Origin: a virus
Strand: one strand, 5' to 3'
Length of the DNA stretch: 20,309 bases
Virus record (IMG/VR): IMGVR_UViG_3300001842_000192
Location: 1 to 20,309 of that record
Shown: positions 12,725 through 18,279 of the stretch, one piece after another
Layout of the letters: every line of letters begins with the position of its first letter
Position numbering within the stretch: position 1 is the stretch's first letter
Translations under genes and position numbers: made by a program
Notes under the pieces: generated by a model
Told to the model about the DNA's origin: nothing
Seen by the model: the letters and a program-made list of their open reading frames with translations, nothing else
Database searches by the model: none

Positions 12725-13655
12725 TGTAAACTCCTATCGCTGTTAATAATTTATCGGTTGAATCTTTCCAATCGCTAAATGGTTCTACCTGCAACTTATA
12801 TCTTAGTATTTTCTGGTGTGCTTCGTCATTCATGGTAGCTACCAATCGATCGGCAAAGTCGGTCTTATCACATCGGATACCATATCGGACTGTTTCAGCT
12901 AATGCCATGGTCGGATAAATCACCGGTATTGCCTGAGCAACCTGTGCCTTGACAGCCGACATACAGAATAACTCACCATCGGTGCAAGGATGTAGCCAGA
13001 AGTCGCTGGTTCGGAATAATTGGCTCATTAGATCATCATCTACCTTACCCAAGAACATCGTATTGGGTAAATCAATCGGTTCAATGCCATAAGTTACAAG
13101 TAAAATTGCGTCTGGAACTTTCTCAACTACCTTGGGCCAGTGTTTTACAAGCTCATCGAAGCCCCGGTCGGGACTGCTGGCGTATAAACACTGATTCTTA
13201 GTCTTTTGTTCAGGGTAAATCTTACTGCTGTCATATCCATGAGGTACGATTCGCACGTTACCTTCGTAACCAAGGTTGTCCATAGCCCACTTACTAGGGA
13301 AAATAACCCCGGCAAAGCGTTCTACTTCATCTTTCTTGTCTGCGATATTAGTTTCATTGGTCAGATACCAGACATTCTTGTCGTCAGCGTGCCTAAACTC
13401 GGAGTACTTAACGTTTATCTCACGTTCGTGTGGCTCGTAATCGTCATAAACCTTGTATTCCACTCCCTCATACTCGGTAGGAAAGCCATTGTAGTAGACC
13501 GTAACATCAAATCCCTGGCGTTTTATTTCACTAGCCCACTCCCGGACTGATTCCTCGGTGCCGGCAAGGAATGGATCATAGGGAGACCAGCCTATTTCTG
13601 TATAAGTAAAGACAGGATTACAAATAAAAGCTATTGAATTGTAAAAGCGTTTCAT
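12717..13655 (-). CDS. GT4-family glycosyltransferase (GT-B fold), intact
   Basis: A 312-residue GT-B enzyme that would move a sugar from a nucleotide donor to an acceptor. The N-terminal Rossmann half (about 1-140) has GTEESVREWASEIKRQGFDV, then VIFPSKWAMDNLG and RIVPHGYD. The C-terminal half (about 155-312) begins CLYASSPDRGFDELVKHWP and has the donor-site stretch DGELFCMSAVKAQVAQAIPV near 226-245, where the second Glu of the usual E-x7-E is Lys. It is a little short for GT4, but both halves are complete. It starts with an ATGA overlap and GGAG upstream. It is the unbroken counterpart of the GT4 that is split at 16147-20012. The acceptor is unknown. Confidence 0.85.
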   Translation of the reverse strand: MKRFYNSIAFICNPVFTYTEIGWSPYDPFLAGTEESVREWASEIKRQGFDVTVYYNGFPTEYEGVEYKVYDDYEPHEREINVKYSEFRHADDKNVWYLTNETNIADKKDEVERFAGVIFPSKWAMDNLGYEGNVRIVPHGYDSSKIYPEQKTKNQCLYASSPDRGFDELVKHWPKVVEKVPDAILLVTYGIEPIDLPNTMFLGKVDDDLMSQLFRTSDFWLHPCTDGELFCMSAVKAQVAQAIPVIYPTMALAETVRYGIRCDKTDFADRLVATMNDEAHQKILRYKLQVEPFSDWKDSTDKLLTAIGVYSG

Positions 13656-14290
13656 TCTATCACTCCGTATTTATCTTTGTATTTCATTAAAGCATCCATA
13701 TAGTATTCATCATCTGGGTCTATTACCTTAAAAGTTTTCTTTCCTTCGTGGAATATCGTAGCGTTATGGTTTTTGCCTATCTTGTAACCCTTTTCCTTGG
13801 CATCATGCCATAGAGCCAAGTCTTCAGCGTATCCTCTACCAAAATCTGTACTTAGCATACCTAAATCATAAAAGACTGGTGAACGAACAGCCCAACAGCT
13901 ACCAAACTTGTCATTCTCGGTAATTTTATCTTCGGTCTTGAAGCCATCGCTGTCTGTAGTGCGTATGGAAGCTATGTCATAACCACGCTCTATGAGCTCT
14001 ATAAGCCCTTGTATCGAGTTTTCTAGCACTAACGTGTCATTGTTTAAGATGATTAGAATATCGCCTTCAGCAACGTCTACGCCAGTATTAACAGCATGTG
14101 CATAACCACCATTCTCTTCTCTGCGTATGTTCTTGGCAAAATCTATTTCGGCTTTAATTGGTGAGCAGTCATCGACTACGATTATCTCATCTACATCACT
14201 GTGGGCTTTGACCGAATTCACACAGTCCTGTGTCATCTCAACGTAGTCATCGTTTATATAATAGGCTGGTATGATAACTGATACTTTCAT
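13652..14290 (-). CDS. GT2-family glycosyltransferase
   Basis: A 212-residue GT-A enzyme. It opens with VSVIIPAYYINDD, the nucleotide-binding start of GT2, followed by VDEIIVVDDCSP, with the uridine-contact Asp residues near 40-41. GGYAHAVNTGVDVAEGDILI leads into the metal site NND at 83-85, the variant of DxD in rhamnosyl- and galactofuranosyl-type GT2s. The acceptor-side acid motif is GYAEDLAL (Glu156, Asp157), followed by TIFHEGKKTF with His181. All blocks are present in order and the length is normal for a minimal GT2. It overlaps both neighbours by four bases (ATGA), so it belongs to the same transcript as the methyltransferase and GT4. Confidence 0.88.
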   Translation of the reverse strand: MKVSVIIPAYYINDDYVEMTQDCVNSVKAHSDVDEIIVVDDCSPIKAEIDFAKNIRREENGGYAHAVNTGVDVAEGDILIILNNDTLVLENSIQGLIELIERGYDIASIRTTDSDGFKTEDKITENDKFGSCWAVRSPVFYDLGMLSTDFGRGYAEDLALWHDAKEKGYKIGKNHNATIFHEGKKTFKVIDPDDEYYMDALMKYKDKYGVIE

Positions 14291-14793
14291 TTGATTAGCT
14301 TTACACTTAAATTCTCTTCACACGGGTAAAAGTCTGGTTCTCGGCGTGCTATTACCTTAAAGCCAGCACCTTTGGCATATTTCTCTATTAAAGCGAAGTT
14401 AAATGGATTACGGTGTATGCTTCCAGCATGGTGTTCCCAATCCTTGTATCTATCCTTATCCCAAGGTCTGTGGTATTCACCTACAAGATTATGTCGCCAT
14501 TGTTCAGTGATACCTTCTTCTAAAATCTTTCGTGCTACTACGTCAATGTCTGGTGTTTCAAGTATTACAGTCCCCCCAGGTTTAAGTACACGATAGAATT
14601 CTTGAAACATTTTATCGTTTTGGTTATAAGGAACATGTTCTATTACTTGGTAAGCTACTATCTCATCGATAGAGTTATCCCCATACGGGAATTCAGTCAT
14701 ATCTGCTTGAACGTCTGCTGCTTTATCGTATTTATCTACATTAATGTAGCCTTCGAGTAAGTTATCGCCACAACCTAGGTTTAGTTTAGCCAT
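14287..14793 (-). CDS. SAM-dependent methyltransferase (Methyltransf_11 type)
   Basis: A 168-residue class I methyltransferase. Motif I is LNLGCGDN (4-11), followed by INVDKYD with the acidic ribose contact at Asp20 and VQADMTEFPYGDNSIDEIVA (28-47). The post-motif IIEHV-like IEHVPYNQNDKMFQEFYRVL precedes the LKPGG loop (about 70-75). It has no DNA-methylase NPPY motif, so the substrate is more likely a sugar or small molecule. Between glycosyltransferases it may methylate the glycan they build; that is inference from the neighbours. A strong AGGAGG lies 7 bases before the ATG, inside the last codons of the cytosine-methylase remnant. Confidence 0.85.
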   Translation of the reverse strand: MAKLNLGCGDNLLEGYINVDKYDKAADVQADMTEFPYGDNSIDEIVAYQVIEHVPYNQNDKMFQEFYRVLKPGGTVILETPDIDVVARKILEEGITEQWRHNLVGEYHRPWDKDRYKDWEHHAGSIHRNPFNFALIEKYAKGAGFKVIARREPDFYPCEENLSVKLIK

Positions 14794-14875
14794 ATAAACC
14801 TCCTATTACAGCAGTTATTACATTAGTAGTTACTGCATTACCACACATCTTGTATTGCACCAAATTATTTATCAT
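14786..14875 (-). pseudogene. C-terminal stub of a cytosine-C5 DNA methyltransferase (motif X)
   Basis: A 29-codon frame reads MINNLVQYKMCGNAVTTNVI then TAVIGGLYG. The part QYKMCGNAVTTNVITAV is the signature end of C5 cytosine DNA methylases (motif X, GNxV...V), normally about 20 residues from the C terminus as here. The MINNLV part probably comes from the junction with the inserted gene. It opens with an ATGA overlap at the NPPY methyltransferase stop and ends inside the start of the next gene. It may still be translated but cannot be an enzyme. The matching N-terminal stub is at 15393-15443. Confidence 0.85.
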
Positions 14876-15396
14876 TTTTTAATTTCCATATCTTCTAAAA
14901 TGATGTCTTGTAAAAATATATTGCTACCAAAATAGCTTGCTTTGAAAGTTGGTTGATTACCAGTTTCTCCAGTTAAAGCATTATAAAATCGCATTCTGCG
15001 AGAAGGTATAAGTAATTGCAAATTGCGATTTTTCATAGTGGAATTAATAATTGAATCACTAAGTATATTAATTGGCAATAATAAAGCAAATGGTTTATTA
15101 AAACTTAAAGCTCTTTCCCAATAAACTCTTTTATTTTTATAGGGCGGATTGCTAATTAAAACATCCCAATTATCAGGTTCATATTTTAGAAAATCTTGTC
15201 CATATTCAATATGTGAATTTATGACTGTAAATCCATCAGCTTTTAATAACTTCACAAATTGACTATCTGCTTTATCAAAAGGACACCAAATAATCTTATC
15301 CTTGAGATGCTGAATATGTTTTAACATAATTTCTACTCCATAATCAGGAGTATATTGCTCATCACCACCACCTTGAGCATAATATATTTGACTCAT
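14872..15396 (-). CDS. NPPY-type DNA adenine methyltransferase-like protein
   Basis: A 174-residue protein with the amino-methylase catalytic motif SNPPYKNK (near 82-88) following WDVLI. The N terminus DEQYTPDYGVEIMLKHI and IIWCPFDKADSQFVKLLKADG act as the SAM-side region; a classic FxGxG motif I is not obvious. ALLLPINILSDS follows the catalytic loop. N6-adenine (or N4-cytosine) methylation of DNA is the likely reaction, although the family has many unassigned members. The gene is clearly A/T-richer than its neighbours: two sample 60-base lines here have 15 and 16 G/C, against 27 in a line of the adjacent GT2. It replaces the body of a C5 methylase and uses the AGGAGG inside that gene's motif I as its ribosome site. 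Confidence 0.75.
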   Translation of the reverse strand: MSQIYYAQGGGDEQYTPDYGVEIMLKHIQHLKDKIIWCPFDKADSQFVKLLKADGFTVINSHIEYGQDFLKYEPDNWDVLISNPPYKNKRVYWERALSFNKPFALLLPINILSDSIINSTMKNRNLQLLIPSRRMRFYNALTGETGNQPTFKASYFGSNIFLQDIILEDMEIKK

Positions 15397-15443
15397 TCAA
15401 ATCCTCCTATTCCACTAAACATTGAAAAGTATCTTATGGCCAT
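15393..15443 (-). pseudogene. N-terminal stub of a cytosine-C5 DNA methyltransferase (motif I)
   Basis: A 16-codon frame reads MAIRYFSMFSGIGGFE and then stops at TGA, where the NPPY methyltransferase starts (ATGA). FSGIGGFE is motif I, the SAM-binding start of C5 cytosine DNA methylases, and is found within the first 20 residues in that family, so this is a true gene start. It overlaps the end of the GT2 gene by 10 bases and has AAAGG upstream. The motif's two Gly codons (GGAGGA) double as the Shine-Dalgarno of the following gene. The missing middle would be some 250 residues or more, including the PC catalytic motif. Confidence 0.87.
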
Positions 15444-16150
15444 AGGTTTAACCTTTCAAGTTCCGGTGGTAATTCTGCCGGTATTAAATTATGTAATGTA
15501 TCTGGACTGGTTGGATGGACATCTGTCATACCTGGTTCCCACTTCATCCATACATCTCTAAACCACTTCTCGGTATCGAAGTCGTTGGCGTGAGCATAGT
15601 GGGTAATCTTTTCGTGTACTTCTACGTCTGTTCTAGCCCAACTAAAGTGGTGGGTATAAATATCTATAAGACCAAAGCTTGAACTGACTACACGCTTGTC
15701 TACAAATCGAACACCGGGCTTTACAAGTATCAAAGGTGTGCAATCTCTGTCTGGATCAGCTTTCCAACCATCTTTCCAATAGACCTTTTGCGATGTAGCA
15801 CAGTAAGCATCGCATTCTGGGTTGTTTTCTATAAACTTGCGTAGCTTGTACCAAGTGTTGTTATCAAAGAATTCATCAGGATCTAGCACTATAATCCAAT
15901 CGTAGTCACCGAATAAGTCCTGACCGAAGTTACGCTGGTCGTGTTCTGTTGGCCAATCTCTTTTGATAACCATGGCTCCGGCTTCCTCTGCTACCTCATA
16001 GGTTTTATCCCTATAGATATTCTGGTCACCGAACCATGGTTTCTCACTTATCAGCACACACTTAGTATCGACCCAGTCTGGGATGTGCTGTAACCATGGC
16101 TTAATAAATCGTTCTTCATTAAGAGCCACAGCTACAACAGCTACTTTCAT
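15434..16150 (-). CDS. GT2-like glycosyltransferase
   Basis: A 238-residue GT-A type protein. VAVVAVALNEERFI (3-16) is the nucleotide-binding start of the NEE/NEER class of GT2. The middle has DQRNFGQDLF and the metal site LDPDEFF (Asp90, Asp92, Glu93). Then come YWKDGW, the HHFSW stretch (167-171) and EVHEKITHYAH (177-187), features shared by small phage and bacterial GT2s of this class. The C terminus NLIPAELPPELERLNLWP is complete. It starts with an ATGA overlap on the GT4 C-terminal half, so the two are translationally coupled. Its last 10 bases overlap the cytosine-methylase stub. The acceptor is unknown. Confidence 0.83.
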   Translation of the reverse strand: MKVAVVAVALNEERFIKPWLQHIPDWVDTKCVLISEKPWFGDQNIYRDKTYEVAEEAGAMVIKRDWPTEHDQRNFGQDLFGDYDWIIVLDPDEFFDNNTWYKLRKFIENNPECDAYCATSQKVYWKDGWKADPDRDCTPLILVKPGVRFVDKRVVSSSFGLIDIYTHHFSWARTDVEVHEKITHYAHANDFDTEKWFRDVWMKWEPGMTDVHPTSPDTLHNLIPAELPPELERLNLWP

Positions 16151-16867: not shown

Positions 16868-17026
16868 CTAATCCTCCACGATTTTAGTCTTAACTTCTTT
16901 TACAAGTAATGATCCAGGGTTCTTTTGTCGTACTCCATAAGCTTCGGCTAGTGTAGCGAATGGCCCTAAGCGTTTGACGACATCTATCTCACCGGTTTCT
17001 ATTAAGATGTAATAAAATGGTTTCAT
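16868..17026 (-). CDS. Small unknown protein (52 aa) in methyltransferase cassette
   Basis: A 52-residue ORF beginning MKPFYYILIETGEIDVVKRL and ending TKIVED. It starts with an ATGA overlap at the stop of the DNA methyltransferase, with AGGAGA upstream, so it is very likely co-translated. A beta-hairpin-like start is followed by a short helix (ATLAEAYGVRQK) and a last strand (SLLVKEVKTKIV). No family is recognised. A role linked to the methyltransferase is possible but unproven. Confidence 0.65.
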   Translation of the reverse strand: MKPFYYILIETGEIDVVKRLGPFATLAEAYGVRQKNPGSLLVKEVKTKIVED

Positions 17027-18279
17027 ATTAACTTCTCCTGTTTATCTGCTTCCCAAGCTTCAATTCTAGCTTCACTTATTTTGCAGTATTCAGGGTCTAG
17101 CTCGATACCGATGTATTCCATACTCTCTAACTTGCAAGCGATACCTGTAGTACCTGAGCCATTAAAAGGGTCTAATACTGTTCCGCTTTTGGGTGTTACA
17201 AGTCTGACTAGGTATTGCATGAGTTTTACTGGTTTGACGGTGGGGTGGATATTAGCACTAACTGTATTCTTGTGTTCACCAGCTAATCCTTGTCTTATAA
17301 CCTCTAGCCCCTCTAGCCCTTTATTTCTTTCACTCTTACTTGCTTTAGCACAGTAAAAGAAGCGAGCAGCAGAGCCAGAGTCGCCATATTGGTCAGGTGC
17401 ATTTGATGTTCCACTCCTACTATCAGTTGTTCCTAGTCCAAGACCATTGTTTCTGATTCTAGCATTTGGTGCTTTATATTTGCCTCCACCAGTATCAGGA
17501 AACAACTCTACTACTTCATCAGAGCCATCATGTATAAAGTTAGCAGGGAAGCGGCCTTTTAAGTAATCATCTGTAACACTACCTCTAACTTTACTAGCAT
17601 TCATTCCAGCACTTGGTGATATATCTTTATACTCAGTAGGTTTGCGGTATAATTCTTTACTATCTGCCTCAACCCTACACCCATCTATATTTAATCCACC
17701 TACGCCATGTTCTAGAACATTATTAGCTACTGAGCCTTTAATAGGTTTTCTAGCTACTGTAATAGGTTCTAGTGCTGGTTTGAGAGCAGTACCCCAGCCT
17801 TCCCAAGGTGAGTTACCTTTGGTAAGTGTTACATCTATTGGTTTTACACCGACTGCATTGGTATTGCTAGCGTATGTACCACCCTTTTCTTTAGTACTTT
17901 GAGCTGCATTGCCACCTAACTTTTGTGTGCCAACAACCTCTCTTTTATTACCTTGTATCTTGTCTACTGCTTTACCTATATTTAGCGATTTAGGAAATCC
18001 TGATCCATAAACCCAAGCAATCATATCTCTAATTTCAAACCCTGCATCTTCTATATTTACTGCCATGCGATGCTGCGTGCGAGTACCTGCGAATGCTAGT
18101 AGATGTCCACCAGGTTTAAGCACTCTAAATACTTCTGTCCATAACTCTGTGCTTGGCACATCATAATCCCATTTCTTACCCATAAAAGATAATCCATAAG
18201 GTGGGTCGGTTACCACTGAATCAATACTGTTGTCTTCAAAGGTCTTTAGTACTTCTAAGCTGTCACCATTGATAATCAT
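17023..18279 (-). CDS. DNA methyltransferase, beta class (N6-adenine or N4-cytosine)
   Basis: A 418-residue DNA amino-methylase. The catalytic motif IV TDPPYGLSF is at 24-32, after INGDSLEVLKTFEDNSID. ELWTEVFRVLKPGGHLLAFA follows (45-64). The long middle, about 100-340, is the target-recognition part. Motif X HPTVKPVKLM is at 345-354, and motif I LDPFNGSGTTG at 369-379, followed by YIGIELDPEYCKIAEARI-like residues (read here as ISEARI). The order IV, recognition, X, I defines the beta class. No restriction endonuclease is adjacent, so it is an orphan enzyme that likely protects phage DNA from host restriction. It starts at the TGA that ends the GT4 N-terminal half and, with two small genes, forms the cassette that splits that gene. 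Confidence 0.9.
   Translation of the reverse strand: MIINGDSLEVLKTFEDNSIDSVVTDPPYGLSFMGKKWDYDVPSTELWTEVFRVLKPGGHLLAFAGTRTQHRMAVNIEDAGFEIRDMIAWVYGSGFPKSLNIGKAVDKIQGNKREVVGTQKLGGNAAQSTKEKGGTYASNTNAVGVKPIDVTLTKGNSPWEGWGTALKPALEPITVARKPIKGSVANNVLEHGVGGLNIDGCRVEADSKELYRKPTEYKDISPSAGMNASKVRGSVTDDYLKGRFPANFIHDGSDEVVELFPDTGGGKYKAPNARIRNNGLGLGTTDSRSGTSNAPDQYGDSGSAARFFYCAKASKSERNKGLEGLEVIRQGLAGEHKNTVSANIHPTVKPVKLMQYLVRLVTPKSGTVLDPFNGSGTTGIACKLESMEYIGIELDPEYCKISEARIEAWEADKQEKLI

Follow-up and report, generated by a model that had tools for sequence, protein, structure and literature searches.

Probable replacement of the inside of a phage cytosine-C5 DNA methylase gene by an unrelated NPPY methylase gene

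Phages gain and lose DNA methylases, and the gene that is replaced usually leaves no trace. Methylase exchange has been described among phages and their hosts (PMC10477858) and in streptococcal phages (PMC10320759), HNH insertion elements such as the ShiLan element occur in phage methylase genes (PMC11855218), and intronless homing is known from T4-like phages (PMC2988022). The locus described here joins two enzyme families. Its two short stubs correspond to the motif I and motif X ends of phage C5-cytosine DNA methylases (PF00145, TIGR00675 dcm, PHROG 116; intact in viral loci L001 and L024), but the catalytic PCQ, ENV and QRR motifs and the target recognition region that these enzymes possess are missing. 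The gene between the stubs is a full-length member, with all invariant blocks, of the small phage NPPY methylases (PHROG 799; remotely similar to the EcoRI methylase, PF13651), and its placement between C5 ends is found only here. We propose that the NPPY gene probably took the place of the interior of a C5 methylase gene in an evolutionarily recent event, and that the retained edges look functional for translation.

The stretch of DNA that was analysed, hereafter the window, is an environmental phage record of 20,309 bases from metagenomic viral sequence. The gene order is GT2a - stub 1 - NPPY ORF - stub 2 - SAM gene, all on the minus strand, with overlaps of a few bases joining each gene to the next; the coordinates and the strand given in the original prediction, and the ATGA overlap it describes at each joint, proved correct when checked against the sequence. 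The features are as follows.

15434..16150, minus strand: GT2a, the upstream neighbour, glycosyltransferase family 2-like, whose stop codon shares bases with the beginning of stub 1
15393..15443, minus strand: stub 1, the N-terminal remnant of a C5 methylase (MAIRYFSMFSGIGGFE, then stop), ending just past motif I
15403..15408, minus strand: AGGAGG Shine-Dalgarno element in the motif-I codons GGA ATA GGA GGA, 6 nt before the NPPY start
14872..15396, minus strand: complete NPPY methylase gene, 174 aa, a putative N6-adenine methylase (from PHROG 799, alignment, fold, composition and dN)
14786..14875, minus strand: stub 2, the C-terminal remnant of a C5 methylase (MINNLVQYKMCGNAVTTNVITAVIGGLYG, then stop), with the motif X tail YKMCGNAVTTNVITAVIGGLYG and stop preceded by 7 residues
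14799..14804, minus strand: AGGAGG Shine-Dalgarno element in the C5 tail of stub 2, 5 nt before the SAM-methylase start
14287..14793, minus strand: SAM-dependent methyltransferase gene of the Methyltransf_11 class, downstream; its start falls within the C5 tail
13652..14290, minus strand: GT2b, glycosyltransferase family 2, which in L001 and L033 comes directly after an intact C5 gene
17023..18279, minus strand: intact, separate N4/N6-type DNA methylase of the window phage (PF01555, E 1e-34)

Several glycosyltransferase and methyltransferase genes are interleaved between 12717 and 20012, from the tail region to the contig end.

To place the stubs within the C5 family, we used an N-terminal profile of 35 peptides of 16 residues and a C-terminal profile of 56 peptides of 20 residues, both drawn from C5 methylases in viral loci. 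Stub 1 matched the N-terminal profile with 35.3 bits (E 4e-10) and stub 2 the C-terminal profile with 45.6 bits (E 2e-13), each being the sole match in the six-frame window; the best scores among 100 mononucleotide shuffles of the window were 10.7 and 12.3 bits, respectively. Matches to curated libraries are weak, which is expected for pieces of this length (joined stubs against Pfam PF00145, E 8.5e-4; stub 2 alone against PHROG 116, E 3e-3, and against TIGR00675 dcm, E 0.026). At the level of single genes, the tail of stub 2 equals the end of the intact L024 C5 methylase in 22 of 22 residues, with 53 of 60 nt identical and 8 of 22 codons differing, all synonymously, and stub 1 agrees with the starts of intact C5 genes in 39 of 42 nt (L094) or 37 of 42 nt (L024 and L026). 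Motif I (F-GIGG) and motif X (GNAV) are present at the two stub ends, in the right order and on the same strand. Given these profile scores and the homology to intact C5 genes in residues and nucleotides, both stubs are, by sequence, genuine C5-methylase ends, as the original prediction had claimed. Stub 1 opens with codons (MA-) that seem to derive from the former start of the downstream SAM-methylase gene and not from the C5 gene, and no match was obtained for the 7 residues of stub 2 that come after the NPPY stop, ahead of the C5 tail; their origin is uncertain. When the L024 C5 methylase was searched against the whole 20,309-base record, only the tail was recovered, with none of the catalytic motifs or the recognition region, and the segment between the stubs contains the NPPY gene and nothing else. 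The earlier claim that nearly the whole C5 body is missing thus holds, and from the remnants in the window no C5 enzyme is predicted to be made.

The same homology to intact C5 ends counts against reading the stubs as conserved small genes, or functional small peptides, unrelated to C5 methylases. Both stubs do carry a start and a stop codon in register with the operon, and stub 2 shows no amino-acid change relative to L024, but their own start sites are weak (anti-Shine-Dalgarno duplex energies of -3.4 and -3.3 kcal/mol), and a free-standing FSGIGGFE-TGA pattern had 0 matches in 2.9 million viral contigs and 0 in about 85,000 species genomes. We consider such small genes hardly credible. Since these searches returned no match, there is no second exact stub case in the viral and genome contigs covered; a DNA pattern for QYKMCGNAVTT likewise had 0 matches in the viral contigs, other members having RYK.

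Between the stubs lies an unrelated and complete methylase, exactly where the original prediction had put it. The NPPY protein matches PHROG 799 (DNA methyltransferase) with E 2e-24, and its alignment retains the invariant blocks DE.YT, WCPFD, SNPP and RM.F, the NPP[YF] motif and the family blocks being present over the full length. Its similarity to the EcoRI methylase family PF13651 is marginal (16.7 bits, below the Pfam cut-off of 26.4), it had no match in NCBIfam, and a sequence search against the PDB gave nothing convincing. The predicted model (pLDDT 79, pTM 0.78) adopts a class I SAM-dependent methylase fold, with modest best matches in the PDB to PacII M1M2S, ZCCHC4 and Erm38 (query TM 0.5-0.6), and also to METTL5. 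The modelled fold is like that of N6-adenine (m6A) methylases of DNA and RNA and, because the matches include rRNA m6A enzymes, the family may act on RNA. Numerous viral contigs, as well as bacterial genomes and isolated phages of Fusobacterium, Prochlorococcus and Thermus, encode relatives of like size; identity is 45-56% to Fusobacterium phage Fnu1 and Prochlorococcus phage P-SSM2, and reaches 78% against viral contigs. Against the nearest relatives dN is about 0.2 and dS exceeds 1, and the G+C content is 29% (17% at third positions) compared to 39-43% in the neighbouring genes. Judged by alignment, substitution rates and base composition, the NPPY gene is intact, belongs to a family under constraint and is foreign in composition.

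This shift in composition at the joints, the metagenomic origin of the 20,309-base viral record and the lack of the exact stub pattern in any other contig searched would all suit an assembly chimera, in which the assembler joined an NPPY segment to C5 fragments. A chimera would, however, require the assembler to have erred twice, independently, within 700 bp, each time keeping the operon register and an ATGA overlap, and the C5 sequence outside both joints is continuous with the correct phage genes; we regard this explanation as improbable. Elsewhere NPPY genes are free-standing, with no C5 stubs around them in the 143 other NPPY loci that were fetched (some overlapping), which indicates that the arrangement in the window is secondary. 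Among these loci, NPPY and C5 genes are neighbours only in L123 (C5, then NPPY) and L194 (NPPY, then C5), and a search of plasmids with the whole stub-NPPY-stub segment gave one weak partial match, to the NPPY part. In L123 (540-1184), the NPPY relative directly follows the C5 gene and lies between 33-nt near-direct repeats of the next gene's start (beginning AAAATGAAGATTAAAAACTG), with a 22-codon stub ORF left upstream; by its repeats, this is another insertion at a start-codon joint.

The surroundings of the swap can be compared across six viral contigs that share the same glycosyltransferase cluster, in which GT2a is 73-89% and the SAM-methyltransferase 79-90% identical to the window's. Their gene orders are as follows.

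L001: GT2a-SAM-C5-GT2b, with the C5 gene intact
L002: GT2a-SAM-GT-GT2b
L103: GT2a-SAM, then contig end
L104: GT2a-SAM-GT2b
L106: GT2a-N4/N6 methylase-SAM-GT2b
L033: C5-GT2b, the contig beginning inside the C5 gene

The slot between GT2a and the SAM gene is empty in L001, L002, L103 and L104 and holds an N4/N6 methylase in L106, a relative of the window's own N4/N6 gene at 17023-18279. The comparison with phages having the same glycosyltransferase and SAM neighbours, which the original prediction had put forward, did reveal intact C5 genes, in L001 and L033, but these lie directly before GT2b, in L001 one gene downstream of the window's slot; none of the six relatives carries an intact C5 gene in the exact GT2a-SAM slot, and none of the six cluster records has an NPPY relative. 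The idea of a fixed locus for methylase exchange is therefore too strong. As the relatives variously carry an intact C5 gene, an N4/N6 gene or no methylase at all, methylases, to judge from gene order, come and go at several junctions of the cluster.

At the upstream junction, GT2a ends in CCT(A/G)TGGCC in all five relatives that show it, and (A/G)TGGCC also serves to start the gene that follows, which in L106 is the N4/N6 methylase, with GTGGCC. In the window, ATGGCC passes straight into C5 sequence (ATAAGATACTTT), and because it continues at once as C5, the C5 gene seems to have been inserted at what was once the SAM start codon. Today the window's SAM gene begins within the C5 tail, at GTAATAGGAGGTTTATATGGCTAA, where the L024 C5 tail has AATAGGAGGATTATATGG; the Shine-Dalgarno element of stub 2 is also present at the end of the L024 C5 gene. 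The NPPY start in turn is preceded by GGAATAGGAGGATTTGA, that is, by the motif I codons. In anti-Shine-Dalgarno duplex energy, the NPPY start (-10.2 kcal/mol) ranks fourth and the SAM start (-10.9 kcal/mol) joint first among 26 start sites. Each stub thus contains a predicted strong Shine-Dalgarno element of the next gene, a feature that was not part of the earlier reading. Since loss of the stub edges would weaken the next gene, we infer that they have probably been kept by selection for its ribosome-binding site; the retention of promoters that lie within mobile genes of T4 has been argued in a comparable way (PMC2988022). The motif-I element is partly a by-product of the GGA codons, and the NPPY gene may make use of it by mere chance, as AGGAGG is found at motif I in 17 of 52 intact C5 starts, among those listed. 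A simple deletion between two AATAGGAGG repeats was considered as the origin of the arrangement and rejected; stub 2 reaches about 70 nt further upstream.

What triggered the swap may be sought in homing. HNH enzymes of mobile genes would have cut the C5 gene at motifs I and X, and repair would have brought in the NPPY fragment, leaving the stubs at the cut sites. Two C5 loci show HNH genes at these motifs: in L039 (3597-4001), a C5 start, MKYLSLFSGIG, continues into an HNH gene that is followed by an intact C5 gene, the HNH part sharing 48% identity with HNH endonucleases annotated in Gordonia phages, and in L054 (5074-5612), an HNH_3 gene (E 3.5e-9) after the C5 gene is followed by an orphan C5 tail, ending LGNAVTVNVIKAVMDKIRVTR, that begins at the GNAV motif. 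The window stubs end at the same two motifs, and HNH elements concealed within phage methylases have already been described (PMC11855218). The replaced segment, however, holds only the NPPY gene and no endonuclease gene was seen in the window, and HNH genes occur at these motifs in only two of about 80 C5 loci. Homing is a reasonable rival for the trigger of the swap, not for its outcome; we rate it as unlikely.

C5 genes elsewhere show further irregularities. A 500-nt insertion in the C5 methylase of L093 (373-873) is open in the methylase frame, while a different frame conceals a zinc-finger/HNH-like ORF (454-873); the insertion resembles the published ShiLan element (PMC11855218) and has no match in Pfam. 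In L082 (4923-5282), an HNH-like ORF (PF13392 E 5e-4, PF01844 E 7e-4) lies in another frame of the extended variable region of a C5 gene that is still open. An extra T in TTTTGAG after FSGIGGF shifts the C5 frame in L054 (3970-4020) so that FSGIGGF is followed by a stop, either a real frameshift or a sequencing error. In the C5 gene of L084 (4001-4685), sequence around the target recognition region is deleted, and the C-terminal part connects to the front part's +1 frame. Intact C5 genes in L001 (5538-6203), L024, L082, L090 and L094 have a long open +1 frame of about 180-240 codons with a conserved peptide containing SLSDILEENVDEKYFLSEK; we considered a hidden gene in this frame but set the idea aside, as the frame is probably a shadow of the main one: it has no Pfam match above the cut-off, and the tblastn match in Streptococcus phage Javan83 falls in the +1 frame of the annotated methylase.

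A tentative and rather doubtful idea is that C5 motifs I and X are standing exchange joints, that is, recurrent sites of cutting or recombination with ready-made ribosome-binding sites. The hints are the window itself, the HNH genes in L039 and L054, and the presence of AATAGGAGGATT at both ends of the intact L024 C5 gene. If true, unrelated modification or mobile genes could be swapped in between the two motifs without breaking translation of the operon.

The history that we favour, a replacement of the C5 body with its edges kept as translation joints, would have begun when an ancestor of this phage acquired a whole C5 methylase gene at the junction of GT2a and the SAM-methylase gene. Later, the body of this gene would have been exchanged for the complete, unrelated NPPY ORF, and the C5 edges alone would have survived, most likely because they serve as joints for translation of the operon. 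From the motif-I codons the NPPY gene would now draw its Shine-Dalgarno element and the ATGA stop/start overlap, and from the C5 tail the SAM-methylase gene would draw its Shine-Dalgarno element and start codon. The C5 enzyme would thereby be lost and the putative NPPY methylase probably made; this enzyme probably modifies the phage DNA with another specificity, as a presumed protection against host restriction. Because stub 2 differs from its L024 counterpart by synonymous changes only, the loss of the C5 gene would be recent relative to the divergence from L024. We consider this account as a whole to be likely.

Because both C5 edges are preserved, the breakpoints are resolved to single bases, and they coincide with translation signals and with the sites at which homing-endonuclease genes interrupt other phage C5 genes. 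The window thus offers a testable case of non-homologous gene replacement within tightly overlapped phage operons. The case is a variant of the already known exchange of phage methylases and not a revolutionary one. It resembles HNH elements and intronless homing in that conserved methylase motifs are interrupted and partial gene ends are found, here also in L039 and L054, but the insert in the window is a methylase rather than an endonuclease and the interrupted gene stays unrestored. With known methylase exchange it shares the gain, loss and swapping of methylases in otherwise related phages, but in the window the edges of the replaced gene are kept with single-base precision and fall on translation signals.
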